A DNA stretch of 64,000 nucleotides from Asanoa sp. WMMD1127 (lineage in GTDB: Bacteria > Actinomycetota > Actinomycetes > Mycobacteriales > Micromonosporaceae): positions 2,604,001 to 2,668,000 of the forward strand of contig NZ_JARUBP010000001.1 of the NCBI RefSeq assembly GCF_029626225.1. Reading direction: 5' to 3'. The translations under genes were made by a program, and so were the position numbers. A model generated the notes under the pieces. The model saw nothing but the letters and a program-made list of their open reading frames with translations, had not been told where the DNA came from and did not search any database. Positions 41,422-55,185 of the stretch are shown here, piece after piece. Within the stretch, counting starts at the first letter, position 1, and each line of letters begins with the position of its first letter.

Positions 41422-42645
41422 CTAGCCGGTGCGGAGGCGGCGGACCAGGGGGAGGGTGGCCGCCACGATGCGTTCGCGGTCATAGCAGACGCCCGCTTCG
41501 AAGCCGCCGTCGGACTCGCGGGCGAAGACCCCGCTCGCGTAGTGGCTGCCGATGAAGAGCACCGAGCGTTCGTGCGCCAGCGGGTCGTCCGCCGCCAGTG
41601 GTACGCCGCGGACCCGGCCCGCCGGGGCCACCGGCACGTCGCGGCCGAGCACGTAGACCTCGACGCCGCGGGTGGTGATGTAGCCGTACCGCAGCCGGGC
41701 CTCGTCGTCGAGGTTGCGGGCGTCCGCCAGGTTGACGACGAGGATGGCCGAGTCGTCGGTGTGCAGCGCCTGGTTCTCGATGTGGCCCGTCATCGCCGTG
41801 AGCAGCGCCTCGGTTATCGGGTTGGTCGGGTCCGTCTGGGAGAGCATCTCGAACGGCGTCGCCTCGGGCACCATCCGCGGCGTGACCCGGACCAGCTCGA
41901 CGGACGTGGTCGGCACCGACGTGGGCAGCGGTCCCGGCACACCGAAGTGGTAGCCCTGGGCCAGCGTCGCGCCGAGGGAGCGGGCGATCTGGAGGTGGTG
42001 CTCGTCCTCGATGCCCTCGGCGAGGATCTGCGCGCCGCTGCGGGCGGCCTCGTGCAGGACGGCATTGACCACATGGGACACCGCCCACGTCGGGGAGTGG
42101 GCCTGCACCACCGTACGATCGATCTTGATGATGTCGGGGTTGACCAACGGCATCGCAGCCAGGCTCGACGGTTCGATGCCGACGTCGTCGAGCGCCACCC
42201 GGGCCGACAGCCTGCGGGCCTGGATCACGGCGTCCATCAGCGCCGGCGGGTCCTGGGTCACCGCCCGCTCCGTGATCTCGATGACCACCTGACGCCGTTG
42301 CATGAGGTCCGCCAGCACGTCCAGCAGGCGCTGCCGGAACGGACCGCGCAGGGTGAACGGATCCATGTTGATGAACAGCGCGGCGTCGCCGAGGTTCGCC
42401 TCCAGGAAACGCTCGGCCGCCACGCCCGCGCACAACCAGTCGAGGTCCGGTGAGCGGCCCAACCGGGCCGCGGCGGCGAACAGGGCCGGCGCCGACTCGA
42501 ACTGGCCGCGCGGACCCCGCGCCAACGCCTCGAAGCCGACCACACTCCCGTCGGCGATCGAGACGACGGGCTGGAAAACCGGATAGATGGAGCGGTCCCG
42601 GAGGATCGCCTCGAACACGTCGTCCGGTGACGGCTGCGCACCCAT
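41422..42645 (-). CDS. Cyclic di-GMP phosphodiesterase: EAL plus C-terminal DICT-like domain
   Basis: 407 residues. The EAL domain (about 20-250) has the key residues GFEALARG (Glu), FINMDP (Asn), EITE, ALDDVG (Asp-Asp), IIKID (Lys) and AEGIED (Glu), so hydrolysis of c-di-GMP is expected. The C-terminal 140 residues resemble the DICT sensory domain (SVLFIGSHYASGVFARES), often paired with EAL in actinobacteria. No membrane segment. ATG 42643-42645 chosen; the frame is open upstream. Confidence 0.88.
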   Translation of the reverse strand: MGAQPSPDDVFEAILRDRSIYPVFQPVVSIADGSVVGFEALARGPRGQFESAPALFAAAARLGRSPDLDWLCAGVAAERFLEANLGDAALFINMDPFTLRGPFRQRLLDVLADLMQRRQVVIEITERAVTQDPPALMDAVIQARRLSARVALDDVGIEPSSLAAMPLVNPDIIKIDRTVVQAHSPTWAVSHVVNAVLHEAARSGAQILAEGIEDEHHLQIARSLGATLAQGYHFGVPGPLPTSVPTTSVELVRVTPRMVPEATPFEMLSQTDPTNPITEALLTAMTGHIENQALHTDDSAILVVNLADARNLDDEARLRYGYITTRGVEVYVLGRDVPVAPAGRVRGVPLAADDPLAHERSVLFIGSHYASGVFARESDGGFEAGVCYDRERIVAATLPLVRRLRTG

Positions 42646-42728
42646 GGCGACCAGGCCCCCTTGCGCGCCGGTGAAGACCTTCGCACTGGCGACGCTACCC
42701 AAGGGCCAGCCGCGGGTCCGGCGAATGG

Positions 42729-45461
42729 CTATGCCGGTGGTGAGCCGCCGAGCGCCCGGGTGAGCTGAGCCCGGTTGCGCACGCCGTGCCGCCGGTAGAG
42801 GCGGGTCAGCTTGGCCTCGATGGCCTTCACGGACAGGTGAGTGGCCCGGGCGATCTCCCGGTTGGTCGCCCCGCCGAGCACGAGCTCGACGATCCGTCGC
42901 TCGGTATCGGAGAGCCCCGGACCCTGGCCGCCGTCGAGGCGGGCCAGCTCGGCCTCGGCCTGTGCCAGCCACGGCGCCGCGCCGATGGCCGCGTACCCGG
43001 CGACCGCCTCGACCAGCGCGGACCGCGACGCGCCGCGGCGGTGCGCGCGGCGCTCCAGCGTCGCGAGGGTGTGCCAGGCCCGGGCGACCTCCAGGGGGTA
43101 CGGGTGCTCGCCCGCCTCGGCCAGCGCCTCCGCCAGCCCGATCGCCGCCTCCCGGGGCTCACCGCTCGCCGCCCGCACCAGCGCGCCGGCCCGGGACAGT
43201 CCGAGTTGGACGACATCGCGGTTGAACGAGGTGGCGACGGCGCGGGTCTCGGCCAGCACCTCGCCCGCCTCGGCCAGCTCGCCGACGGCGGCCAGGGCCT
43301 CGACGAAGTCGGCGTGCCAGAGGAAGATCGCCGGGTCGTTGCGGCCGTGCCGGCGTTCGAGCTCCTGCGCCTTGCGGAATTCGGTCACCGCGGCCTCGGG
43401 GGCGCCCTGGAAGAGCAGCACCTGACCGTGCGCGGCGTGGCAGAGCCGGAGCCAGTCCTCGTCGCCGGCCGCCGAGCACGCCTCGATCGCCTGCCCCAGC
43501 AGGCTGGCCGCCACCGCGGGCGAGCCGGCCAGCATCTCGCCGAGCGCGCCGACCACCAGGCCGTGCCCCGGGGTCGCCTCCATGTCGAGGATCAGCCGCA
43601 TGCCCTCGCGGCCGGCCCGCAGCGCGTCGGGGCCGCGGCCGGCGCGGAAGTAGATCGACGCCGACGCCAGCAGCACGCTGGACAGGTCGCGCAGGGTGCC
43701 CGAGCGCAGCACCGCGTCGCGCTGGGCCTCGATCACGCGGGTCGCCTCGCCCACGTCACCGGCGTACGCCCGGCCGCGCGCGTAGGTCGCCGCGGCGTGC
43801 ACGCTCTCGGTGCTCGGCGGCAGGTCGGCGGCGAGCGACGCGGCGTGGCTGAGCAGCCGGACACTCTCGGGGTCGTGCGCGCCGCGGATCAGCGACCGGG
43901 TGGCCAGCAGGGACACCAGCTGGTCGGTCGCGCCGGCCTCGCGGGCCTCCTCCTCGCCCCGCTTGAGCTCCGCGTCGGCGAACTCGATGTCGCCGTCGTA
44001 GTAGGCCTTCAGCGCCCGGTAGTGCCGCACCCGGCAGAGCAGCGCCGGGTCGTGGCCGGCGTCGGCGAACGCCGCGTCGAGCACGGGACCGACCGCGGAC
44101 TGGTCCTGGCCGGCGAGGTCGACGATCAGCAGCCGCCCGCCGACGCGTACCGCCGGGTCGTCGGAGGCCGCCAGCGCGGCGGAGGCGAGCCGATGCGCGT
44201 CGGCGGTCAGGCCCGCGGCGTGCGCGTGCTCGGCGGCCGCGTAGCGGCGTGCGGCGCCGACCCCCCGCAGTTTCGCCGGCGTGCGCTCGGCGGCGCGCTC
44301 GGCCAGGTCGGCGGCGACGGCTGGGGCGCCGCGCATCCGGGCGGTGGTGGCCGCCTCCATCAGCTGGTCGGCCAGGTCCTCGTCGGCGTGCGGCCGGGCC
44401 AGGGCCAGGTGGCGGGCCCGCTCGACCGAGTCGTCGGTGTGCGCGGCGATGTGCTCGTGCGCGGCGGCGCGGGCGGCCGGGGTGGCGTCGGCGTAGACCA
44501 GCTCCCGCAGCAGCGGATGGGCGAACCGCACGGTCTCGTCGGGGCCGGCGGTGGCCAGGCCGGCGTCCATCGCCGCTTCGAGACCCGCTTTGGCGTCGCC
44601 GTCGCGGCCGATCAGCGCGACCGTGGGGCGGGCGGCCGCCGCGGCCCGCAGCAGCACCGGGCCGCTGTGCGCGGGCAGGCTGGCCAGCCGCTGGGCGAGC
44701 AGCGGGCGGAGCCGCTCGGGCACGGGGAGGGGCTGGTCGACGCCGATCGTGCCGCCGCGGGCGACCAGGGTGCGGCCCAGCTCGACGGCGAGCAGCGGGT
44801 TGCCCTGGCTGGCCTCGTGCACGCGGGCGATCGTCGACAGCGACAGCACCGGGCCGAACTGCTCGCGGAGCAGGTCGGCGGTGTCGTATTCAGTCAGCGG
44901 GGCCAGCAGCAGCTCGGTGACCGGCGCCGGGCACAGGTCGGTGTGCCGCGGGGCGGCCGACTCGACGCGCTCGGCGCCGAGCACCCGGACCCGGGCGCCG
45001 CCCAGCCGGCGCGCCACGAACCGCAGCACGCCGGCGCTGTGCGGGTCGACCCACTGGAGGTCGTCGACGAGCAGCAGCACGGTGCGGTTGGCGGCCAGCC
45101 GGCGGAGCACCTCGAGCGTGGCGAGGCGCACGGCCAGCTGGTCCTGTGCGGTGACCGGGGTGGCGCCGCGGAGCAGCGCGCCGTCGAACGCGGCACGCAG
45201 GTGGCGCGGGAGGCCCTCGCCGCTGACCCCGTCGAACAGGTCGACCAGCGTCAGGTAGGGCAGGCCGGACTCGACCTCGGCCGCGTTGGCCCGCAGCACC
45301 AGCGAGTCGCCGGCCCGCGCCGGGTAGGCCGCGAGCACGGTGGACTTGCCGATGCCGGCCGGACCGTAGACGACCACGCTCTCGCCCGTGGTGAGCCGGG
45401 CGTGCAGCTGGTCGAGCACGTCGGACCGGCCCACCGGTGCCGGGTCGCGGTTGACTGCCAC
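42729..45461 (-). CDS. Large ATP-binding LuxR-family regulator (LAL type)
   Basis: 910 residues. The N-terminal AAA/STAND ATPase has Walker A GPAGIGKST (33-41) and Walker B VLLLVDDLQWVD (about 130), a long TPR-like helical middle, and a C-terminal LuxR HTH (about 845-905; LSDTERRIVELV, NREIARATHLSVKAIEAKL). GTG start at 45459-45461. It lies 76 bp downstream of the Hsp70-like gene and on the same strand, at the edge of the ini-like locus, which it may control. An inverted repeat overlaps its start codon. Confidence 0.92.
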   Translation of the reverse strand: MAVNRDPAPVGRSDVLDQLHARLTTGESVVVYGPAGIGKSTVLAAYPARAGDSLVLRANAAEVESGLPYLTLVDLFDGVSGEGLPRHLRAAFDGALLRGATPVTAQDQLAVRLATLEVLRRLAANRTVLLLVDDLQWVDPHSAGVLRFVARRLGGARVRVLGAERVESAAPRHTDLCPAPVTELLLAPLTEYDTADLLREQFGPVLSLSTIARVHEASQGNPLLAVELGRTLVARGGTIGVDQPLPVPERLRPLLAQRLASLPAHSGPVLLRAAAAARPTVALIGRDGDAKAGLEAAMDAGLATAGPDETVRFAHPLLRELVYADATPAARAAAHEHIAAHTDDSVERARHLALARPHADEDLADQLMEAATTARMRGAPAVAADLAERAAERTPAKLRGVGAARRYAAAEHAHAAGLTADAHRLASAALAASDDPAVRVGGRLLIVDLAGQDQSAVGPVLDAAFADAGHDPALLCRVRHYRALKAYYDGDIEFADAELKRGEEEAREAGATDQLVSLLATRSLIRGAHDPESVRLLSHAASLAADLPPSTESVHAAATYARGRAYAGDVGEATRVIEAQRDAVLRSGTLRDLSSVLLASASIYFRAGRGPDALRAGREGMRLILDMEATPGHGLVVGALGEMLAGSPAVAASLLGQAIEACSAAGDEDWLRLCHAAHGQVLLFQGAPEAAVTEFRKAQELERRHGRNDPAIFLWHADFVEALAAVGELAEAGEVLAETRAVATSFNRDVVQLGLSRAGALVRAASGEPREAAIGLAEALAEAGEHPYPLEVARAWHTLATLERRAHRRGASRSALVEAVAGYAAIGAAPWLAQAEAELARLDGGQGPGLSDTERRIVELVLGGATNREIARATHLSVKAIEAKLTRLYRRHGVRNRAQLTRALGGSPPA

Positions 45462-45482
45462 GCAAGCGAGTCTGCCTTGCGT
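45460..45482 (-). promoter_or_regulatory. Inverted repeat overlapping the start codon of the LAL regulator
   Basis: ACGCAAG, nine bases, CTTGCGT: a perfect 7-bp repeat with a 9-bp spacer. It covers the GTG start on the minus strand. It may be an autoregulatory operator or an RNA hairpin that hides the start. Confidence 0.45.
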
Positions 45483-45537
45483 TTTGCGCGCTGTCGGTCG
45501 GCGGTCCGGCCTTTTTTGCGAAAGCGAAACCTTGCCC

Positions 45538-47616
45538 CTAACGGCGATCTTGGATGGTCACGCAGTTTCCCGTTTCGTAGCCACCCTCGGTGTCCTTGAC
45601 GAGAACGTCGGCGGCGTCCGCGATCCGGGCGCAGACCTTGGGGTTGTCGCCGATGACGTCGCGATAGTTGCTGCCGTCGACCGCGCGGACCGACGGCTCT
45701 TTGTCTTCGAGATAGAAACGCCCTGGCTGGTCGGACTGGTTGCCCATCTGCGCGGCCGGCGGGTTCTGGCCGTCACCGCCGTAGATGTGCAGATGGAATC
45801 CGCCGCTGTTGCGTGGGGCGGCGCCTTTCCATTGGGCGTCGTATTCGACGACGAACTTCTCGTCGTCGACGAACGCCTGGGTGATGCAGACCCAACGCTC
45901 GTTGGCCTGGATCGCCGCGGTGCACTGCTCGTCGGGCGGCAGCGGCGGCGCGGTGACGCCGGCGGCGTTGGTCGGGTTCGTCGGGTCGGCGCTGCCGAAG
46001 CCGAAGTTGTCGCGGTTGACCCACAGCGCGGCGCCGGCGAGGGCCAGCACGACCACCACGGCCGCCGTGACGAGCAGGGCACGGTTGCGCGGCCGCGGCG
46101 GTGCTTGCGACGGGGCGGCCGGATACGCGTATTCGACCCGGTGCGGTCGCGGCGCCGGCGAGGTCGGTGCGGCCGATCCGGCCCGGCCGGGCGCGAAGAC
46201 CTGCTGGGGCATGCGGGCGGTGGGCTCGTCGGCCGGCGCCGTGACGGGCGACCGGTGCGGCTGCGCGGGCGGCGCGGAGGCCGGCCGGACCGGCGCGCCG
46301 GAGGTCGGACGGCCGGTGGGCGGCGCAGCGGCGGCCCGGGCCGGCGGCGCGGAGGTGGGCCGGGCCGGTGGCCCGGAGGTGGGCCGCGCGGGTGACGGGC
46401 TGACCGGCGCGCTCGGCATCGGCGTGGGGCTGACCGGCGCGTTGGACATCGGTGGGGCGCTGACCGGGGCCGAGCCGGTGGCCCGGGTCGGCGGGTGGTG
46501 GATGACCACGGTGGCGGAGCCGCGGGCCGCGCCGGCGTCGGGCGCCTGCCCGGTCAGGCCCGCGCCGGCCAGCCGGGCCGCGCCGAGGGCCACGGCGTGC
46601 TTGGGGTGGGCGTCGACCGCGACCGGCCGGTTGAGCTCCGCCGCCACGAGCTGGGCCACGATCGGCATGCGGGACGAGCCGCCGACGAGCAGCACCGAGT
46701 GCAGCTGCTCGGGCTCGACCCCGGCCGAGCGGACCGCCCGGCGCAGCGCCTCGATCGAGCCGTAGAGCGCCGGCCGCACCATCGCCTCCAGCTCACCGCG
46801 GGTCAGCCGGATCTCGGTGGAGATGGTCGGCAGCAGCACCGGGATGGAGACGTCGGTGTCGGCGGAGAGCGCCTCCTTGGCCGCCACGCACTCCTCGCGC
46901 AGCCGGGCCACCGCGGCGATCGCCGTCGGGTCGTCCTCGTCGAGCTCGGCCAGCTTGCCGCCGAGGGCCTGGGCGACGTGGTGGAAGACGGCCGCGTCGA
47001 AGTCGATGCCGCCCAGCCGCTCGATGCCCTCGGGCTGGCCCAGGATCTCGAAGCCCTGCGCGGTCTTGCGCAGCACCGCGGCGTCGAACGTACCGCCACC
47101 CAGGTCGTAGACCGCCACCACGGCCCCGGGGTCGATGCGCTGCTGGCTCGCGTAGAACACCGCCGCCGCCTCGGGCTCGGTGATGAACGAGACCGGCTCC
47201 TCGATCCCGGACAGCCGCACGGCCTGCCGCAGCAGGTCGGTCTTGTAGGGACCCCAGTTGGCCGGGTGCGAGACGGTGATCGCCCGCGGCGCACCGCCCT
47301 CGCGGCTGGCCACCTCGTCGAGCGTCCAGCGCAGCAGGCGGCCCATGAGCGCCTCGGCGGAGTACGGCACGCCGCCCAGCAGGATCGGCGTGGTGTCACC
47401 GAACCGGCGCTTGAACTCGCGCGCCACCCGGTGCGGCTCGGTCAACCCGCGCCGGTTGGCGGGCTCGCCGGTCAGGAACGTCTCATCCTCGCGCAGCAGC
47501 ACCACCGACGGCACCGCGGCCGCTCGGCTGCCCAGCGAGGCGATCTCCGCATGACCGGTGCGCCAGGTCGCGGCCGCCGTGAACGTGGTGCCGAGGTCAA
47601 CGCCGAGTGCGTACAT
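45538..47616 (-). CDS. Membrane-anchored Hsp70-like protein with extracytoplasmic domain
   Basis: 692 residues from ATG 47614-47616. Residues 1-385 are an Hsp70-type ATPase domain: GVDLGTTFTAAA, PANWGPYKTDLLRQA, YDLGGGTFDAAV and LVGGSSRMPIV are present. Instead of a substrate-binding domain there is a Pro/Ala/Ser/Thr-rich linker (about 390-508), a single helix (about 511-531) and a 160-residue outside domain with several cysteines (EQCTAAI, RWVCIT, KVCARI, GNCVTI). So ATPase and sensing ends are on opposite sides of the membrane. It sits with dynamin-like and IniB-like genes and may drive or sense membrane stress with them. Confidence 0.88.
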   Translation of the reverse strand: MYALGVDLGTTFTAAATWRTGHAEIASLGSRAAAVPSVVLLREDETFLTGEPANRRGLTEPHRVAREFKRRFGDTTPILLGGVPYSAEALMGRLLRWTLDEVASREGGAPRAITVSHPANWGPYKTDLLRQAVRLSGIEEPVSFITEPEAAAVFYASQQRIDPGAVVAVYDLGGGTFDAAVLRKTAQGFEILGQPEGIERLGGIDFDAAVFHHVAQALGGKLAELDEDDPTAIAAVARLREECVAAKEALSADTDVSIPVLLPTISTEIRLTRGELEAMVRPALYGSIEALRRAVRSAGVEPEQLHSVLLVGGSSRMPIVAQLVAAELNRPVAVDAHPKHAVALGAARLAGAGLTGQAPDAGAARGSATVVIHHPPTRATGSAPVSAPPMSNAPVSPTPMPSAPVSPSPARPTSGPPARPTSAPPARAAAAPPTGRPTSGAPVRPASAPPAQPHRSPVTAPADEPTARMPQQVFAPGRAGSAAPTSPAPRPHRVEYAYPAAPSQAPPRPRNRALLVTAAVVVVLALAGAALWVNRDNFGFGSADPTNPTNAAGVTAPPLPPDEQCTAAIQANERWVCITQAFVDDEKFVVEYDAQWKGAAPRNSGGFHLHIYGGDGQNPPAAQMGNQSDQPGRFYLEDKEPSVRAVDGSNYRDVIGDNPKVCARIADAADVLVKDTEGGYETGNCVTIQDRR

Positions 47617-47776
47617 CGCGGTCGCTCCGGTGATCGTGGGCAGGTGCTGGATCGAGTTTTCTTGATGGCACGACGGCGCGCCGGTTCCTGTCGGGAGTCC
47701 GACCACGCGCGGGTTGGGGGATGGGCACGGGGAAGTCCCCGACGGCGCGGGCGCGCCGCCGCCCTAGGGTGAGGAC
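47617..47776. promoter_or_regulatory. Divergent promoter region of the Hsp70-like and acidic IniB-like genes
   Basis: 160 bp. It contains GGGTTGGGGGATGGG (47711-47725) followed by CGGGGAAGTCCCCG (47728-47741, a 6-bp inverted repeat). A related pair of motifs stands upstream of the IniB-like gene at 52816-52845, suggesting a common regulator. Confidence 0.5.
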
Positions 47777-48325
47777 ATGGACGCGCGACCGCTCAAGGAC
47801 GTTCTCACCGACCTCGTCGGTGACCCGTCCGCGGCCGCCGACGCGCTGGCCGGCGCCGGGCACGATCTGCCGCCGGAGCTGGTGGCCGAGGCCGTGGTGA
47901 GCTTCGCCGGCACCGCGCCGGCGGAGGTGGCCGAGCATCTCGCGCCGTTCGTCACCGCGCACAGCGGCGTCCCGGTGGAGTCCGAGCTGGACGCGCCGGC
48001 CGACTGGTTCGAGTTGCTGGCGACCGCGCCCGAGACCGGCGCCGAGCTCGACGAAGGGCTGGCCGCGGCGCCGGACAGCGCCGACGGGCCGGGCCTCGGC
48101 GAGTTGGACTTCGGTGCCGGCGCCGATGCCGCCGACGCGGACCTCGACCTCGACCCGAACCCCGGCGGCGACCTGGACGACGAGCCGGTCGCCGCCGGCG
48201 GGGTCGACGAGACCGACCTGGCAGAGCCGTCGACCGACCTGGACCAGGTCGACCCCGACCCGACCGACGCCGGCTTCGACGACGGCGACGCTGACGAAAC
48301 TGACCTCGACGACCTCGACGGCTGA
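47777..48325 (+). CDS. Acidic IniB-N-like protein
   Basis: 182 residues. The first 70 are a helical domain with DPSAAADALAGAGHDL and an APAEVAEHLAPFV end, which follows the pattern of the IniB N-terminal domain (a DP-x-A start, a Gly-x-Asp turn, a final P-x-V helix). The remaining 110 residues are almost all Asp, Glu, Ala, Gly, Pro and Leu (Asp-rich repeats such as DLDLDPNPGGDLDD), expected to be disordered and strongly negative. It is on the opposite strand to the rest of the ini-like genes. ATG 47777. The link to IniB is an inference from pattern. Confidence 0.68.
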   Translation: MDARPLKDVLTDLVGDPSAAADALAGAGHDLPPELVAEAVVSFAGTAPAEVAEHLAPFVTAHSGVPVESELDAPADWFELLATAPETGAELDEGLAAAPDSADGPGLGELDFGAGADAADADLDLDPNPGGDLDDEPVAAGGVDETDLAEPSTDLDQVDPDPTDAGFDDGDADETDLDDLDG

Positions 48326-48339
48326 GCGGCGGCGCGACA

Positions 48340-49812
48340 TCAGCGGCCCCGGCCGTTGAGGTCGGCCAGCAGGCCCTCGCACGACCGCACCGCGACCCGG
48401 GCCGCCACGGCCATCTCGTGCGCGGTCATCGGGTTCTCCGCCCGACGCTGCCAGCGCATCAGCGCATCGGCGGCCGCGGAGCGCAGCTGGCCCGCGGCGG
48501 CGTCCGGCGGCAGGTCGAGGCGGACGTGCGGGGCGGTGCCCGTACCCCCGATGACCCGTTCCAGCTCCTCCACCACCGCCGGCTTGCCGCCCAGCCAGCC
48601 GGCCCGCAGGGTGGCGAGCACGCGCAGCTCGTTGAACGGATGGGCGGACGCGACGATCTCCTCGACCTCGGCCGCCACGGTCGCGCTGCCGGGCCGGGGC
48701 CAGCCGCGGGCGAGGGCGTCGAGGGCGAGCAGCGCCGAGCGGGCCTTGAGCACCTCGCGCCGCTCGAAGAACAGCGAGCCGAGCACCTCCTGCAGCTCGG
48801 TCAGCCCGCTGCGCTCGGTCAGCTCGCGGGCCAGCCCGGTCGCCGTGACCTGCGCGTCCTGGCGCAGCAGCGTGCTGGCCAGCCGGATGCCGTAGAGGCC
48901 GAACCGGGCCAGCAGCGACTCGCGCTCGATCGAGGTCAGCCCCAGCTCCGGCAGCGTGTTGACGAACCGGTCGGCGGTCAGCAGCAGCTCCTCGGCCGGC
49001 TTGACCTCGAGCCCGGCGACGGCGCGGAGGTGGCGCACCTCGGTCTCGGTCAGGGTCGCGGCGGTCTCGGCGAGCAGACCGGCCACGGGTACGACGGTCT
49101 GCACCACCCGCCGCACGTTGGCGTCACCGGCCAGCCGGCCGGCGATCCGCCGCGCCGAGGCCATCGCGTCCAGCCGCCCCACGCCGATCTCGTCGGCCCG
49201 GGACAGCACGCCGATCGCGTTGACCGGGTTGGGCCGCGACACCTCGGTGTCGTGGAACGCGTGCAGGAACTCGAGGTCCTTGGCGTGCAGGTGGCGCATC
49301 AGATAGAGCACCGCGTCCGCCGGCGTCTCCTCGTCGTCGGGCGCGAGCAGCTCCCAGGCGCGCCGCGAGACCCGCTCCGACAGCGAGCCGATGCCCGGTG
49401 TGTCGATCAGTGTGGCCTTGCGCAGCGCCTGCGACGGCCAGGTGATGTCGAGCGAGTGCACGTCCTGCGGCGCGGTGCCGCCGAGGTCGACCTCGATCGC
49501 GCCGTCGTCGCGGGTGAACCGCAGCTGCCGCGGGGCGCCGGAACGGGGGTGCAGGGTGACGCGGTAGGTGTGGCCGTCCCGGTACCAGGTGACGATCCGG
49601 GTGCACTCGCCCGCGTCGGTGGGCGCCAACCGGTCGGCGACCAGCGCGTTGAGCAATGTGGACTTGCCGGACTTGATCCGCCCGGCGATCGCCACGCGCA
49701 GCGGCTCGTCGAGCCGTTCCCGCACCTCGGCGATCCGGGCGTCGAACCCGCTGCCCCGGTAGACCCCGGCGGCCCGCGTCAACGCCGACCGGGTCCGGTC
49801 CACGAGCGTCAT
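48340..49812 (-). CDS. Dynamin-like GTPase (IniC-like)
   Basis: 490 residues. The N-terminal dynamin GTPase has P-loop GRIKSGKST (44-52), DTPGIGSLSERVS as G3 and switch II, and a changed G4 (VLSRADE in place of TKxD). The rest is helical stalk with no clear membrane paddle. In mycobacteria IniC is the shorter partner of IniA; here too it follows the longer dynamin gene, with an ATGA overlap. Likely forms hetero-oligomers at the membrane. Confidence 0.87.
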   Translation of the reverse strand: MTLVDRTRSALTRAAGVYRGSGFDARIAEVRERLDEPLRVAIAGRIKSGKSTLLNALVADRLAPTDAGECTRIVTWYRDGHTYRVTLHPRSGAPRQLRFTRDDGAIEVDLGGTAPQDVHSLDITWPSQALRKATLIDTPGIGSLSERVSRRAWELLAPDDEETPADAVLYLMRHLHAKDLEFLHAFHDTEVSRPNPVNAIGVLSRADEIGVGRLDAMASARRIAGRLAGDANVRRVVQTVVPVAGLLAETAATLTETEVRHLRAVAGLEVKPAEELLLTADRFVNTLPELGLTSIERESLLARFGLYGIRLASTLLRQDAQVTATGLARELTERSGLTELQEVLGSLFFERREVLKARSALLALDALARGWPRPGSATVAAEVEEIVASAHPFNELRVLATLRAGWLGGKPAVVEELERVIGGTGTAPHVRLDLPPDAAAGQLRSAAADALMRWQRRAENPMTAHEMAVAARVAVRSCEGLLADLNGRGR

Positions 49813-51599
49813 GCGGCACCGAGCTTGAGCGCGCGGTCGCGGAGCTGGCCCAGCCGGGTGAGCTCGGCCTCGAGGTCCTTGAGCCGCTTCTGGCGGTCCG
49901 CCTGCGAGCGCTTGGCCGTGTCGGTGGCCGCGGCCAGCGCGGTCGCGGTCGACCGGTTGAGCTCGTCGGCGAGCTGCGTGTAGTGGTCGCGCAGCTGCCG
50001 CTGCACCCGGCGCACGGTGTCCCGGCTGTCCTTGCCGGTCACGAAGCTGATCTCGTCGCAGTAGCGGCGCATCGCGTTCTTGCCCTGGGCCCGGCGCCTC
50101 TCCAACTGCCGTTTCTTCTCGTCCTTGAGGCCGCGATGGCCCATCACGACGCCGATGCCGATGCCGATCGGACCCAGCGCGACGCCCATCAGGCTGCCCA
50201 GCATGGTGAACATCAGGGCGCCGCCGTACGCGCTCTTCAAGGCGACCATCACCTGCTTGCCCGCGGTCATCTTGGCCAGCTCGATGCGGTGCTCCACGTC
50301 GCGTTCCTCGACGATCGGCGTCGGGTTGTAGACCTTGAGCATGCCGATCGCCTCACCGGAGGCCTCCTGGAAGTGCTCGGCCACCTGCTCGCTCAGCTCG
50401 GTCGCCCGGCGGCGCAGGTAGGTGTAGTTGCCGAGCAGGTCGTAGGAGATCCGGGCGCGCAGCCACTCCTCCATCTCGGGCCACATGTCGGCCGGGTCGA
50501 CCTCGTCGATCGCGTCGTCGGCCTCGGTGGTGATCTTGCGGATCCGGTCGCGCAGGTCGAAGTCGACGTCGGCGGTCAGGTCGGCGGTGCCGTCGTTGAG
50601 CGTGACGCTCCACCGGGCGGCGGCCGTCTTCAGCTCCTCGACCCGGCGCTTGGCCGTGTTGAGGTCGTCGACGATCCGCTGGGCGTTGGCGGGGTCGGCG
50701 AGCGTGTCCCGCTCGGCGGTGAACTGCCCGCGCAGCTGGTCGCAGACGGCCAGCACCTCGGCCGCGGCGTCCTTGGTCCGGCGGGCCGCGGCGCCGCCGC
50801 CGACCCGTTCCTGCACGAACTTGACCAGGTCGGGGAACCCGGACTCGACGTTGAGGGCCTGGTTGTTGGCGCGCACGGCACGGGCGCGCAACGGCGACGA
50901 GACCGGCAGCAGCGGGATCTCGCCGACCATCCGGAGGTGGCCGGCGTTGAGGTCGCGGATCCGTCGCCAGGCCGGATAGAAGTCGATTTTGGTGAGTACG
51001 CAGACCACGGTGGAGCACAGCTCGCGGGCCTGCCGGAGGAACTCGACCTCGCTGCGGGTCAGCTCCTGCGCGGCGTCGGTGACGAAGAGGACGGCGTCGG
51101 CCAGCGAGATGGCGGCCAGTCCCGCGGCGGCGTGCGCGGAACCGAGGCCACCGACGCCGGGGGTGTCGACCATGACCAGGCCGCCGCTGAGGATCTTGCG
51201 CGGGACGGTCACGTCGACCCGGGACGCCCGGGCGCCCTCGTGTCCCTCGACCACGTGCCGGCGCAGGTCCGCGAAGTCGACCTGCTCGCGGCGGGGCGGG
51301 TTGCCCTCGTGCACCACGGTGGCGGTCTTCTCCGCGCCGTGCCGCACGAACGTCGGCACCGCCGTGGCCACGTCGTCGTCGACGGGGCAGACCGCCGTGC
51401 CGAGCAGCGCGTTGATCAGTGAGCTCTTGCCCTGCTTGAACTCGCCCGCGACGACGATGTGCACCGCCGGGTCGGCCAGCCCGGCCTGGAGCCGGCCCAG
51501 CCGCGCGGCGAGGTCCTCCCGCCCGTACGCCGTGCACGCCTTGATCCCCAGGTCGACCAGGGCGGTCGCCGGGGCGGTGGCGGTGGCTGGCTCGGTCAT
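49809..51599 (-). CDS. Dynamin-like GTPase with membrane-binding region (IniA-like)
   Basis: 596 residues from ATG 51597-51599. GTPase motifs: GEFKQGKSS (52-60), DTPGVGGLGSAHA and CVLTKIDFYP with an intact TKxD. A long helical stalk follows, then a hydrophobic hairpin (about 455-485; MFTMLGSLMGVALGPIGIGIGVV) flanked by basic residues, which matches the lipid-inserting paddle described for mycobacterial IniA. The C-terminus is a coiled coil. Role: membrane remodelling or repair under cell-wall stress, by analogy with IniA. The next gene overlaps by 4 bp. Confidence 0.9.
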   Translation of the reverse strand: MTEPATATAPATALVDLGIKACTAYGREDLAARLGRLQAGLADPAVHIVVAGEFKQGKSSLINALLGTAVCPVDDDVATAVPTFVRHGAEKTATVVHEGNPPRREQVDFADLRRHVVEGHEGARASRVDVTVPRKILSGGLVMVDTPGVGGLGSAHAAAGLAAISLADAVLFVTDAAQELTRSEVEFLRQARELCSTVVCVLTKIDFYPAWRRIRDLNAGHLRMVGEIPLLPVSSPLRARAVRANNQALNVESGFPDLVKFVQERVGGGAAARRTKDAAAEVLAVCDQLRGQFTAERDTLADPANAQRIVDDLNTAKRRVEELKTAAARWSVTLNDGTADLTADVDFDLRDRIRKITTEADDAIDEVDPADMWPEMEEWLRARISYDLLGNYTYLRRRATELSEQVAEHFQEASGEAIGMLKVYNPTPIVEERDVEHRIELAKMTAGKQVMVALKSAYGGALMFTMLGSLMGVALGPIGIGIGVVMGHRGLKDEKKRQLERRRAQGKNAMRRYCDEISFVTGKDSRDTVRRVQRQLRDHYTQLADELNRSTATALAAATDTAKRSQADRQKRLKDLEAELTRLGQLRDRALKLGAA

Positions 51600-51638
51600 C
51601 GCTGCGTCCCTCCGGTGTGGACGGCGCAGCGGGCCGGC

Positions 51639-51654
51639 CGGGCCTAGTGGCCCG
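51639..51654 (-). terminator. Intercistronic hairpin between IniB-like and IniA-like genes
   Basis: CGGGCC-TAGT-GGCCCG, a 6-bp stem in the 97-bp gap. Without a T run it would give partial termination or mRNA end protection, making IniB-like product more abundant than the dynamins. Confidence 0.45.
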
Positions 51655-51696
51655 ACCGCCCGCTGTCGGCGAGTGGTGTGTAGTTGGGTGGATGGA

Positions 51697-52731
51697 TCAG
51701 GCGGGGGCGTCCTCGGGCTCCGGCTCGCGCATCGAGGGCTCGTCGTGCTCCTCGAGGGTCCGCGGCGGCGGGACGCTGAAGTCCTGGTCGAAGTCGGCGT
51801 CCTGGTCGCCCGGGCCCTGCTCCGTGTTGACCACCGAGTCCTCGGCGTTGACGTTGGTGTTCTCCGTGATCGTGGTGTCGTTGTCCTCGTTGGTGGTGTC
51901 ACCGTCGCCGAGGCCGATCGCGGAGTCGTCGTTGTCGGCGATGTTGGTGCCGGAGCCGACGTTGGAGTTGTCGAGCGTCGAGTCGTTGACGTTGTTGACG
52001 TCGCCGTCGCCGAAGTTGATGACGCCGTCGTTGTCGCCGTCGACGTCCACGTCGTTGGCTTGCTGGTCGTTGTTGTTGCCGACGATCGAGTCCTCGACGT
52101 CGCCGTCGGCCACGATGCCGGTGTTGGTGCCGGTCACCACGGGCGCCTCGAGGTCGCCGTCGACCGAGACGGCGCCGTCGCTGTTGAACAGGTTGTCGCC
52201 CTCGATGTCGCCGTCGACGACCTGCGAGTTGGCCCCGGTGGCGGCGTTGACGTCGTCGGCCTCGCCGACCGCCACGGCGCCCGCGCCGGACGCGTTGGCG
52301 TTGTTGCTGTCGATGTCGAGCTCGCCGTCGAAGTCGTCGCCGACCTCGACGTTGGTGCTCTGGTCGACGATCTCGTTGATGATGTCGTTGTCGTTGGTCA
52401 CCTGGTTGACGTAGGTCAGGTGCTGCACGACCTGCTCCATCGACTGCGGCCCGGAGGTCACGTGGTGGGTGGGCGGGGTGTAGCCGCCGCCACCGCCGCC
52501 GCCGCTCGTGTAGCTCTGCAGCGCCCGCGCCGCGTCGGCCGGGAAGCCCGGCTCGCCGCAGGCCTGCTGCACGATCGCCGGCATGTCGAGGCCGGACAGG
52601 TCGTGCTCGGTGATGCCCTGGGCGACGAGCTCGCCCTGGGGGTTCTGCGCGAACTGCAGAGCCTTGGTCGGGTCCGTCGCCAGCTGCTTGACGAGGTTGA
52701 CCAGGAGGTTGGTGAGCTCGAGATTCTGCAT
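51697..52731 (-). CDS. IniB N-terminal domain protein with Asp/Asn-rich repeat tail
   Basis: 344 residues from ATG 52729-52731 with AAGGAGG 8 bp upstream. Residues 1-62 are the IniB N-domain (LTNLLVNLVKQLATDPTKAL, QGITEHDLSGLDMPAIVQQACG). A Gly7 linker leads to about 230 residues of imperfect 18-22-residue repeats built around [VA]DGD[ILV]E and rich in Asn, Asp, Val, Thr and Gly, which could form a beta-solenoid. The end is Pro/Glu-rich. Mycobacterial IniB has a Gly-rich tail instead. No signal peptide or membrane helix is seen. It is upstream of both dynamin genes. Confidence 0.88.
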   Translation of the reverse strand: MQNLELTNLLVNLVKQLATDPTKALQFAQNPQGELVAQGITEHDLSGLDMPAIVQQACGEPGFPADAARALQSYTSGGGGGGGYTPPTHHVTSGPQSMEQVVQHLTYVNQVTNDNDIINEIVDQSTNVEVGDDFDGELDIDSNNANASGAGAVAVGEADDVNAATGANSQVVDGDIEGDNLFNSDGAVSVDGDLEAPVVTGTNTGIVADGDVEDSIVGNNNDQQANDVDVDGDNDGVINFGDGDVNNVNDSTLDNSNVGSGTNIADNDDSAIGLGDGDTTNEDNDTTITENTNVNAEDSVVNTEQGPGDQDADFDQDFSVPPPRTLEEHDEPSMREPEPEDAPA

Positions 52732-52815
52732 TTCCCTTGCCTCCTTCTGAGGAGTTCTCCCGGCCTGTCTGGCGGGTGTGCATACAGCGTCGCCGTCGGC
52801 CCACCCCCCGGACAT

Positions 52816-52845
52816 CGGGAAGACCCCCCTGGTTGGGGGGAGGGG
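52816..52845 (-). promoter_or_regulatory. G/C-tract inverted repeat in the IniB-like promoter region
   Basis: CCCCCC-TGGTT-GGGGGG (52824-52840), preceded by CGGGAAGA and followed by AGGGG. The motifs CGGG(G)AAG(A/T)CCCC and GGTTGGGGG-AGGG recur upstream of the Hsp70-like gene. TATGCA further down (minus strand, about 52778-52783) may be the -10 box. A binding site for the adjacent LuxR regulator is a reasonable guess. Confidence 0.45.
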
Positions 52846-52905
52846 ATAGGGGGTGCCGGCCGGTACACAGCAGACCGCGAAACAACCCGCTGATGACGCG
52901 GAGTG

Positions 52906-55185
52906 TCAGGAATTGAGCAGGGATTTCAACGCGGCGACGAATTCCGCCCGGTCGGTGGCGCCGACCTTGACGCGGATCCGGGCCACGTGATGCTCGACGG
53001 TCTTCGGCGAGATGAAGAGCTGAGCCCCGATCTCCTTGTGGGTACGCCCGTCGAGCACCAGCCGGGCCACCTCGACCTCCCGTTCGGACAGTCCGGCCGC
53101 GTTGCCCTCGCCGGCCCGCTCCGGCTCGGCGCCCGACAGCTCGCGGGCCACCTCCAGCAGCCGGCGGGCGGCGGTCGGGTCGGTGGTGCGGATGGCGGCG
53201 TGCCCCGCCAGGCGGGATGCCTCCCACGGCAGTTCGGCGGCGCCGAGCGCGTCGGCCGCGGCGAGGACGGCGTCGAGGTCGACCGCGCCGGCCAGCGAGC
53301 GCGTCCACGCCGCCGCGGCCGCCGCCTGGGCCCGCTGCCGCTCGCCGCCCGCGCCGGCCGACCCGACCGCGTCGGCGGCCGCCTTGACCGCGGTCGGGTC
53401 GTCGGCCGCGACGCCGATCTGCAGCCGGATCCAGGCGAGGGCGACGGTCCAGGCCGGCGGATGGCCGAGCCCGGCGACGACGCCGTCGAGCGCCGCCAGC
53501 ACCGGCGCGATCCGTCGTGGTTGCCGCAGCCGGGTCGCGGCCACGGCCAGCTCCTCCACCTGCTCCAACTGGAACAGGTCGACCGCCTGCCGGGCCAGCA
53601 CGGGCTCGACGCTCACCCACGCCTCGCGCAGCTTGGCGATGTCGCCCGACCGGCGGGCCAGCCCCGCCCGCAGCGCGGCCGCCAGCAGCACCTCGCGGCC
53701 GGGCAGCCCGTCGCCGAGCCGGCGCAGCTCGGCCAGCGCGGTGTCGTAGCGACCCGTGCGCAGCCGGGTCCAGGCCAGCAGCAGGCGGTGGCGCTGGGTG
53801 AAGACCGGGCCGCCGACGCCGCGGTCGAGGGCGCGGTGCAGCAGGTGCTCGGCGGTCCCCGCGTCGCCGGCCGTGACGGCGACGATCGCGGCCAGCGCGT
53901 GGGGCGTATCCGGCAGCACCACCGTGGGCGGCGTGCGCTCCACGGCCTCGGCGGCCTCGATCAGCAGCGGCACCGCCGCCCCCGGCTCGCTCGCCGCAGC
54001 GACCACTGCTTGCGCAAGAAGGAACGGCCCGTTGTTAACGCTTTCCGCAGAGGAACGGTCCGTTCCTAACGCGGCGCGGGCGTCGGCGAACCGGCCGAGG
54101 GCGACGAGCGACGGCACTGCGAGCAGCGGCCCGGGCGAGGCTGCGGTGGCGGACGGGGCGGCCGGGTGGCCCGACCGCCCGTCGGCGGCGGCGAGCGTTT
54201 CGACGGCGCGAGCCGGCCGGCCGTCGTGGGCCGCGACTGCGCCGGCCACCAGGGCGAACCGGTGTCGGTCGGCCGGACGGGAGGCACCGGACGGCTCGAC
54301 GGGGAGTCCGACCAGCGCGGCCGCCTCGGCCCGGCCCGCGGCGACCGTCGCGGGATCGGCGCCGGCGTCGACCGCGTCGGCGTACCAGGAGATGGCGGCG
54401 GCCGGGTCGGTGAAGCGCAGGCGGTCGCCGGCGGCGCGGAACACGTCGGCGCCGGTGCGGATGCGGGCCGCCCGCAGTTGGGTGGCGGCCGCGACCGGGT
54501 CGGCGCCCGAGGCGGCCAGGGCCGTGGCGACCCGGGCGTGCACCCGGCGGCGCTCGGCCGGCGCGAGATCGTCGAGCAGGGCCGCCGCCACCGCGGGCAC
54601 GAGCCGCTCGGTGTCGGGCGCCAGGAAACCGAGGTCGCGGAGGGCACGCAGCGCCCCGGCGAGCGCGTCGGGCGGCTGGCCCGTGGCGCCGGCCAGCACG
54701 TCGTCGGCCAGGTCGAGGCCGAGCGCCAGTGTGCGGGCCACCTCGATCACCATCGGGTCCACTGTGGCCAGGCGACGCTGCACCCGGCCGAGCAGTCCGC
54801 CGTCGGCCAGCAGCGCGGCGATCGCCGGCCAGCCCGCGCAGGCCTCGTGCAGGTCGGGCCGGCCGGTCAGGGCTGCGATCGCCGCGGCGTCGAGCGGCGC
54901 GAGCCGGGTCAGGCCGTCGTGGGCGGCCAGCTCGTCGAGCTCCGCCAGCGCCGGCCGGTCCAGCGTCGGGCGGCGGCCGAGCAGCAGGGGTATGCCCCGA
55001 CGGGCCACATCGGACAGCGCTGCCAGGATCGCGTCGGGCAGGCGATGCGGGTCGTCGACGACCACGGCGGACGGGGCCGCGGGCACCTCGGGCCGGTCGG
55101 GCGTCACCCACACGGCGTGGGGTGGGGCGAGCGCGCGCAACCGGTGCGTACGCCCGGCTCCGTCGACCCCCACCACGACCGCCAT
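52906..55185 (-). CDS. IniR-like LuxR-family regulator with degenerate P-loop
   Basis: 759 residues. The N-terminus VVGVDGAGRTHRLRAL sits where Walker A should be but has Arg for the Lys (GAGRT), and AVVVDDPHRL stands for Walker B, so ATP binding is doubtful. A long TPR-like helical region follows, then a C-terminal LuxR HTH (about 695-755; LSEREVEVARLV, HKEIGAQLFISPKTVEHH). Its place directly upstream of the IniB-like gene matches iniR (Rv0339c) beside iniBAC in mycobacteria, where IniR activates the operon. A 54-bp palindromic element lies in frame within the gene (54019-54072). Confidence 0.87.
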   Translation of the reverse strand: MAVVVGVDGAGRTHRLRALAPPHAVWVTPDRPEVPAAPSAVVVDDPHRLPDAILAALSDVARRGIPLLLGRRPTLDRPALAELDELAAHDGLTRLAPLDAAAIAALTGRPDLHEACAGWPAIAALLADGGLLGRVQRRLATVDPMVIEVARTLALGLDLADDVLAGATGQPPDALAGALRALRDLGFLAPDTERLVPAVAAALLDDLAPAERRRVHARVATALAASGADPVAAATQLRAARIRTGADVFRAAGDRLRFTDPAAAISWYADAVDAGADPATVAAGRAEAAALVGLPVEPSGASRPADRHRFALVAGAVAAHDGRPARAVETLAAADGRSGHPAAPSATAASPGPLLAVPSLVALGRFADARAALGTDRSSAESVNNGPFLLAQAVVAAASEPGAAVPLLIEAAEAVERTPPTVVLPDTPHALAAIVAVTAGDAGTAEHLLHRALDRGVGGPVFTQRHRLLLAWTRLRTGRYDTALAELRRLGDGLPGREVLLAAALRAGLARRSGDIAKLREAWVSVEPVLARQAVDLFQLEQVEELAVAATRLRQPRRIAPVLAALDGVVAGLGHPPAWTVALAWIRLQIGVAADDPTAVKAAADAVGSAGAGGERQRAQAAAAAAWTRSLAGAVDLDAVLAAADALGAAELPWEASRLAGHAAIRTTDPTAARRLLEVARELSGAEPERAGEGNAAGLSEREVEVARLVLDGRTHKEIGAQLFISPKTVEHHVARIRVKVGATDRAEFVAALKSLLNS
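54019..54072 (-). repeat. 54-bp palindromic element, copy A, in frame inside the IniR-like gene
   Basis: Read on the minus strand it matches copy B (59356-59409, plus strand) at 49 of 54 positions. It holds GGAACGG(A/T)CCGTT...GTTAACAACGG(G/A)CCGTTCC. Its 54 bases are 18 codons, adding LGTDRSSAESVNNGPFL to the protein without a frameshift. It behaves like a small mobile palindromic repeat tolerated in coding sequence. Confidence 0.85.

Follow-up and report, generated by a model that had tools for sequence, protein, structure and literature searches.

An ini-type locus with a linked Hsp70-type gene in Asanoa and in other Actinomycetota

We studied a 64-kb window (the whole stretch of DNA that was analysed) of the 7.97-Mb Asanoa genome (G000:C1:2604001-2668000), and in particular a set of seven genes in which an Hsp70-type gene lies near two dynamin-like genes. 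Judging from protein matches, this set is an envelope-stress locus of the ini type (IniR-IniB-IniA-IniC), in a form with a linked Hsp70. Among the ini loci that we sampled, the Hsp70-linked form is the usual form. As to what the Hsp70 protein does, we prefer the reading that it is a membrane-bound scaffold of the ini system, and given the sequence evidence we would put the probability of this at about 45%. The seven genes are:

52906..55185, minus strand: IniR-like LuxR regulator, 759 aa (NCBIfam NF038181 IniR, 222 bits over 500 aa; LuxR helix-turn-helix, E=1.6e-14)
51697..52731, minus strand: IniB-like protein, 344 aa (helical N-terminal domain, then an Asp/Asn/Gly-rich region for which the prediction has low confidence)
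49809..51599, minus strand: IniA-like dynamin (381 bits to M. smegmatis IniA, PDB 6j72; Pfam Dynamin_N, E=1.2e-23)
48340..49812, minus strand: IniC-like dynamin (Pfam Dynamin_N, E=2.8e-9; best matches 71-93% identity in related genomes)
47777..48325, plus strand: acidic protein, akin to the IniB N-terminal domain in a comparison of profiles (conserved family; divergent from the Hsp70 gene)
45538..47616, minus strand: Hsp70-type membrane protein, 692 aa, whole gene (Pfam HSP70, E=8e-46; 4/4 checked active-site features intact)
42729..45461, minus strand: AAA-LuxR regulator, P0007 (Pfam AAA_16 and GerE)

All seven lie at these positions, and each was picked by a gene caller that uses codon-position GC. 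On the minus strand, the order of transcription is IniR-like, IniB-like, IniA-like, IniC-like, Hsp70, and AAA-LuxR. An initial annotation of this DNA presented six of these genes as a one-strand series, with the acidic one on the other strand, and its positions and order stand, but the seven-gene set is not one plain operon. The plus-strand acidic gene splits IniC from Hsp70, so the Hsp70 gene has its own divergent promoter region (47617-47776).

That annotation was right in proposing an ini-type locus, and also about two dynamin-like GTPases with P-loops. The IniA-like dynamin matched three PDB sequences, of which M. smegmatis IniA is the top one (582 aa covered). Its P-loop is GEFKQGKSS; that of the IniC-like dynamin, which comes directly after IniA with a 4-base overlap, is AGRIKSGKST. 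The regulator is below the curated cut-off for NF038181, the equivalog model of IniR as a STAND ATPase-LuxR protein (222 as compared to 750 bits), and its P-loop is degenerate (GVDGAGRT, with R replacing the Walker-A K), so we file the gene as IniR-like rather than as IniR. The IniB-like protein has a weak match to the model of the IniB N-terminal domain (15.4-18.5 bits, with a cut-off of 40), and 18 of 20 aligned members match this model at E<=0.1 (best E=3.5e-23). Its structure model has a block at residues 1-70 with a predicted local distance difference test score (pLDDT) of 72-90, and the score is below 45 from residue 121 onward. The acidic protein on the other strand, which had been called IniB-like, is where it was said to be, and a profile comparison relates it to the IniB N-terminal domain (probability 93.7, E=1.8e-7).

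The linkage of Hsp70 to the dynamins was assessed from loci that were found by scanning for relatives of IniA, irrespective of Hsp70; their flanks were then examined. We counted an Hsp70 as linked if a frame for a non-DnaK Hsp70 lay within 7 kb of IniA, and we required at least 7 kb of flank on both sides. In what we call the named set (79 loci, from the best 80 of 517 confirmed candidates), 48 of the 50 loci with full flanks have a linked Hsp70. Of these 50 loci, 49 have IniC nearby, 44 have IniR, and 40 have IniB. The other samples, again for loci with full flanks, gave 9/10 for the phylum (from the 12 strongest rows outside of the window's own genome), 17/18 for Mycobacteriaceae (20 taken of 69 rows; six further Mycobacteriaceae rows were counted within the phylum sample), 19/19 for Mycobacterium (20 taken of 70 rows; 68/98 genomes matched), and 16/17 for Micromonosporaceae (38 loci taken). 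The family samples were chosen for diversity before the flanks were examined and are not random draws. Because the sets overlap (L082/L042, L085/L043, and L148/L159, for example, are on the same contigs), we do not sum the counts. Also, the label Mycobacterium for genus g45 rests on one member's IniA, which is 96% identical to M. smegmatis IniA.

The window fits the Hsp70-bearing group: it has a non-DnaK Hsp70 within 7 kb of IniA, along with IniB, IniC, and IniR-like genes. The co-occurrence of the Hsp70 gene with the dynamin pair, on which the initial annotation had staked its proposal, is strongly conserved. On the other hand, the idea that the Hsp70 was added in an "expanded version" of the locus has to be given up. 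Hsp70 is present in most of the sampled ini loci, including those of Mycobacterium, so it is the locus without Hsp70 that looks derived. Under a 6-kb flank rule, 29 Micromonosporaceae loci could be classed and 6 of these lacked Hsp70; all six had the pattern that we call group III (">C>A", lacking tokens for IniR and IniB).

The profiles that we used to find Hsp70 were built partly from linked copies; an independent Pfam model also picks up the ini-linked Hsp70 in the genomes that we searched for the background rate. For that rate, we used 16 of the 20 genomes searched and left out G136, G355, G360, and G362, which are in several contigs. By our filter, these 16 genomes contain 61 non-DnaK Hsp70 genes, of which 19 are within 9 kb of IniA or IniC, as compared to 0.18 expected, and every genome (16/16) has such a gene. 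Because all of these genomes had been mapped before they were chosen, they show how rare the background is rather than giving an unbiased rate, and it is the named set that carries the claim.

Linked Hsp70s are found in Micromonosporaceae, Pseudonocardiaceae, Kineosporia, Acidimicrobiia, Nitriliruptorales, Arthrobacter, Microbacteriaceae, and Mycobacteriaceae, and at least five gene orders keep the ini set together. If R, B, A, and C stand for the ini genes and H for Hsp70, then the window type is R-B-A-C-H. In Pseudonocardia, H is head-to-head with B-A-C, followed by R. R-H is head-to-head with B-A-C in Mycobacteriaceae and in part of Micromonosporaceae, and H-C is head-to-head with R-B-A in two loci (Actinoplanes and Couchioplanes). 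The fifth order, H-R-B-A-C, was seen in two loci (one Arthrobacter and one Microbacteriaceae metagenome-assembled genome, or MAG). For 31 of 48 named loci, the Hsp70 closest to IniA lies upstream of it and is encoded on the other strand, usually head-to-head with IniB. Some loci have more than one copy: L043 (which is L085, on one contig) has a second, tandem IniB-Hsp70 pair, and L193, whose IniA is 96% identical to that of M. smegmatis, has two Hsp70-like genes, the first flanked by IniR and IniB and the second following IniC, as do several others. As far as gene positions tell, these orders show that the linkage of Hsp70 to the dynamins, IniB, and usually IniR has been kept through repeated gene shuffling. 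So far as such comparisons go, the dynamins, IniB, IniR, and the membrane Hsp70-fold protein are a conserved physical-genetic unit. Besides the Hsp70-like genes, several genomes of Mycobacterium and Mycobacteriaceae (L163, L165, L193, and others) have a true dnaK about 10 kb or less from the ini locus.

We built FastTree trees of the ATPase domain from 69 linked copies (a subsample of 159 records, with gappy ones dropped), 28 unlinked or group III copies, and one DnaK; in a second run, four duplicates of group III copies were removed. The clade with the ini-type linked Hsp70s has a support of only 0.565. Of its 79 tips, 11 are unlinked, and 10 of these are paralogues from Mycobacteriaceae. Since unlinked tips are nested in the linked clade, it appears that copies have also moved away from the ini locus. 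The Hsp70 of L169, which is linked to a divergent dynamin pair, lies outside of the ini-type clade.

The unlinked relatives and the nested paralogues would fit with the Hsp70 being a neighbor that shares regulation by envelope stress and acts in some other envelope task, such as polar wall growth. MSMEG_0692/Rv0312 is presumably a member of the linked Hsp70 family. In a study of polar growth, it is described as an ATP-binding, Pro/Thr-rich protein with one helix in the FhaA interactome (PMC11898655, in excerpt). We consider this explanation to be quite unlikely, as co-regulation alone explains less well why the linkage to IniB, IniA, and IniC is found across at least five gene orders and in several classes of Actinomycetota.

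The window's Hsp70-type protein has three parts:

46537..47616, minus strand: Hsp70 nucleotide-binding domain, about residues 1-360, presumed cytoplasmic (profile matches)
46024..46080, minus strand: single membrane helix, about residues 513-531 (hydropathy scan)
45541..45960, minus strand: outside domain, predicted to be beta-rich (alignment of 23; model pLDDT 90.9; weak FN3/Ig-like matches)

The features of DnaK-type nucleotide binding (D.G, D.GG.T, E, and K) are all present. The best stretch of Pfam HSP70 ends at profile position 373 of 599, and a Pro-rich linker comes next. No substrate-binding domain or lid is found in the window protein, which has the linker, the membrane helix, and a 4-Cys domain in that place. 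The arginines just ahead of the helix fit a topology with the N terminus inside. In the alignment of 23 sequences, four Cys and an HxH of the outside domain are invariant; a profile of Cu/Zn superoxide dismutase, which we considered because of the HxH, gave at best E=0.18, over 31 profile positions. So the profile matches, hydropathy, and alignment agree with the first description of an Hsp70-type ATPase with one helix and a Cys-containing outside domain, and show a protein with a predicted ATPase domain, no substrate-binding domain, a Pro-rich linker, one membrane helix, and an outside region. By the hydropathy scan, a membrane helix follows the ATPase domain in 135 of 159 linked Hsp70 records (some genes are counted twice). 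The 4-Cys domain, a putative beta-sandwich, is found in 31 linked records, including the window's. As for other outside regions, Pfam identifies kelch in L049 and a WD40-like propeller in L047, and Hsp70s from Pseudonocardiaceae and Mycobacteriaceae have tails rich in Pro, Thr, and Ser.

In the named set, 34 of 40 upstream opposite-strand copies and 23 of 23 same-strand downstream ones retain all four checked ATPase residues. The upstream copies of the Micromonosporaceae set do so in only 3 of 14 cases, and the copies from Mycobacterium in 0 of 33. Eukaryotic Hsc70 uncoats clathrin, and by analogy the Hsp70 protein might use ATP to disassemble polymers of dynamin or of IniB. The initial annotation had allowed for such recycling of the assembly. 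The position beside the dynamins and the intact residues in the window and in all 23 downstream copies are compatible with this, but a recycler that has no substrate-binding domain (the HSP70 matches stop, and a linker and membrane helix follow) and keeps the checked residues in none of the 33 Mycobacterium copies is hard to credit. Also, none of the eight window proteins that we scanned matched the J-protein or GrpE families. Recycling is weakened by these results, and we think it very unlikely. Whole lineages have lost ATPase residues, the substrate-binding half is absent, and outside domains have been swapped; on these grounds we favor an anchor, scaffold, or switch over a classical chaperone. 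A role in scaffolding or in coupling a signal fits these sequences better than a chaperone that recycles dynamins. The other option of the initial annotation, that the protein may pass an outside signal to the assembly, is compatible with what we see; the outside domain is not the same in all lineages.

If the Hsp70 protein is a scaffold, then its outside part would contact the cell wall or periplasm, and its actin-fold cytoplasmic domain would switch with ATP where the residues are intact. The cytoplasmic domain would bind IniB and/or the IniA/IniC dynamins and so fix them at the damaged membrane. IniR, or a paralogue, would turn on both the IniBAC operon and the Hsp70 gene via boxes in the shared promoter region.

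Alternatively, the protein could be a receptor upstream of the regulator: it would sense the wall from outside and signal via its ATPase domain to IniR, which would turn on iniBAC. Hsp70 sits next to IniR and points the same way in <R<H>B>A>C loci (those of Mycobacteriaceae and of group II in Micromonosporaceae), and likewise in >H>R>B>A>C loci (Arthrobacter and the Microbacteriaceae MAG). The outside domains are varied and are partly of binding types (kelch in L049, WD40-like in L047, and the conserved 4-Cys/HxH domain), as might be expected for a receptor. However, IniR is not next to Hsp70 in Pseudonocardia or in the window, and four Mycobacterium loci (L207, L208, L211, and L212) keep IniR although the sole Hsp70 that we found is downstream of IniC. 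Furthermore, trehalose serves IniR as a metabolic cue of its own (PMC5760070, in excerpt). On balance we think that this is rather unlikely. A broader idea is that these proteins are a previously unrecognised class of transmembrane, Hsp70-fold receptors for wall stress. They would join a cytoplasmic actin-like ATPase or pseudo-ATPase to swappable outside sensors (the 4-Cys/HxH domain, kelch, the WD40-like propeller, or a wall-spanning stalk rich in Pro, Thr, and Ser), and would directly gate membrane repair by dynamins via IniB, with IniR switching the module on. This is doubtful, but if true, the classic iniBAC operon would make up just one section of a bigger apparatus.

In the scaffold reading, the Hsp70 gene would be turned on along with the ini genes. 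Two elements in the window are candidate operators:

52808..52853, minus strand: conserved element upstream of IniB, CCCCCTA ... GGGGGG-N-CCCGATGTCCGG, candidate IniR operator
47728..47743, minus strand: GTCGGGGACTTCCCCG palindrome between the acidic gene and Hsp70, candidate operator

A G-run followed by CCCGATG is found in 25 of 31 IniB upstream regions, a pattern that has no random control. GGGGANNTCCCC is present once in the 64-kb window, at 47729. The more general pattern GGGGN3-5CCCC is in 10 of 13 divergent promoters between acidic and Hsp70 genes, as compared to 121 of 4000 random 260-mers from the same loci; it is in 0 of 10 other Hsp70 upstream regions and in 14 of 31 IniB upstream regions. 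Ahead of upstream opposite-strand Hsp70 genes, we also looked for two or more TAGGGG boxes on either strand. These were found for 16/18 promoters in Mycobacterium (1/58 control genes), 8/14 in the Micromonosporaceae set (1/204), 9/19 in Mycobacteriaceae (0/68), 4/7 in the phylum sample (0/50), and 9/40 in the named set (0/327). Any TAGGGG box was found for 5 of 23 downstream Hsp70 copies of the named set. Because we picked the promoter patterns after looking, they support co-regulation but do not prove it. The upstream boxes suggest that Hsp70 is co-regulated with the ini genes, and we infer that IniR may bind them.

Several observations weigh against our reading. So far, what ties the Hsp70 protein to IniB or to the dynamins is at the level of genes. 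IniA itself was matched at E<=1e-30 in just 24 of 246 genomes from the phylum (27 rows), so the ini system is patchy. The checked ATPase residues are kept in none of the 33 Mycobacterium copies, as described above. The group II Hsp70 sequences that we examined mostly show no helix and have changed ATPase residues, and 11 of 29 Hsp70 records in the Micromonosporaceae set have no membrane helix by the hydropathy scan, so neither the anchor nor the ATP switch is universal. The outside region differs from lineage to lineage. TAGGGG boxes were found for 0 of 12 downstream Hsp70 copies in Mycobacterium, the window's Hsp70 upstream region has the palindrome and no TAGGGG box, and when the window's upstream regions were compared directly, the result did not rise above shuffles. 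Finally, the drug response of IniR in Boot 2017 is reported from M. tuberculosis and M. marinum, and M. smegmatis is the one species for which that paper mentions a dnaK-like gene (PMC5760070, in excerpt).

The AAA-LuxR regulator (P0007), which had been taken for a second regulator of the set, does not appear to belong to it. Orthologues at above 400 bits were present in 4 of the 169 loci scanned, all in the genus Asanoa. This makes it a local neighbor outside of the conserved set, and it is probably outside of the core of the ini locus. The called frame of a gene for an EAL-DICT domain protein (41422-42972, minus strand) overlaps the end of this gene on the same strand; cyclic di-GMP has been tied to the control of mycobacterial iniBAC via HpoR (PMC13413693, in excerpt).

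We also noticed some other variants of these proteins. Nine of the 20 aligned IniB N-terminal domains match TIGR04509, an NHLP-related model for ribosomally synthesized and post-translationally modified peptides (RiPPs; best E=1.4e-5), and five match NF038399. The IniB N-terminal domain and RiPP leader-like domains may have a common ancestor. In L193, two frames (371 and 176 aa) match a small profile of the IniB N-terminal domain at 21 bits each, in contrast to the statement that M. smegmatis lacks iniB (Boot 2017, PMC5760070, in excerpt). In a Micromonosporaceae locus (G090, L047:3410-8661), the gene for the WD40-like ini-linked Hsp70 is preceded by one for a wall hydrolase (SLT and NlpC/P60) and one for a protein with a sub-threshold Ig-like match; these neighbors point at the cell wall. 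Seven group II Hsp70-like proteins (L053, L055, L057, L058, L069, L075, and L076) have changed phosphate-2 loops and, after a Pro-rich stretch, a PPRPPVKITPLKLPK-like motif near the C-terminus.

The window genome encodes three more Hsp70-ATPase proteins outside of ini loci (L170-L172; 570, 652, and 888 aa). In our trees, its three unlinked Hsp70s group with five group III ones in a 14-tip clade (support 0.978) that contains no ini-type linked Hsp70. The genome also has a second dynamin pair (G000:C1:6242001-6276000; L039 and L040), with a tail-anchored Hsp70 about 14 kb off and, beside the pair, a 974-aa protein that is a putative P-loop LuxR, judging from its letters alone. Tail-anchored Hsp70s lie a few kb from a dynamin pair in L059, L066, and L070 as well. 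A second association of Hsp70 with dynamins, outside of ini loci, is possible.

The induction of iniBAC is widely used to read the action of cell-wall drugs in mycobacteria, and the joint action of IniB, IniA, and IniC on the membrane has yet to be worked out. The membrane-anchored Hsp70-fold protein, whose gene accompanies the ini genes in several lineages of actinobacteria and which a close relative of the laboratory species M. smegmatis also has, is a candidate for a missing anchor or sensor. The locus is also an example of the Hsp70 ATPase domain being used without the chaperone half. IniA mediates membrane fission, with an activity that was called relatively low, and a possible need for IniC was suggested (PMC6715688, in excerpt). 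DnaK, Hsp70, and chaperone do not occur in the main text of that paper. The initial annotation knew of no description of the Hsp70 member's role, which is nearly so: in the open-licence literature, we found one remark, on a "dnaK-like gene" beside iniR in M. smegmatis (PMC5760070, in excerpt), and there may be others elsewhere.

How does this locus compare to known systems? Like DnaK and HscA, the window's Hsp70 has a nucleotide-binding domain with its motifs; unlike them, it has a membrane helix and an outside domain instead of a substrate-binding domain. In endocytosis, Hsc70 and auxilin act in one membrane pathway with dynamin, which also combines an Hsp70 ATPase with a dynamin. Given the lack of a substrate-binding domain, and of J-protein matches among the scanned window genes, this likeness is likely only an analogy. 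The group III dynamin pairs (at C1:6250017 in the window genome) resemble ini in having paired dynamins, some with a tail-anchored Hsp70 nearby, but they have no IniR or IniB labels beside them and their Hsp70s are in a separate clade. The closest comparison is with the mycobacterial iniR-iniBAC system, whose activator IniR resembles MalT and, in M. tuberculosis, binds ahead of iniBAC (PMC5760070, in excerpt). In both, homologues of IniR, the IniB N-terminal domain, IniA, and IniC are found together, and the Mycobacterium loci that we examined also carry Hsp70-like genes. Unlike mycobacterial IniR, the window's IniR-like protein has a degenerate P-loop. And to the locus as given in Boot 2017 (iniR, iniB*, iniB, iniA, and iniC; PMC5760070, in excerpt), the window adds an Hsp70 with intact ATPase residues and a 4-Cys outside domain.

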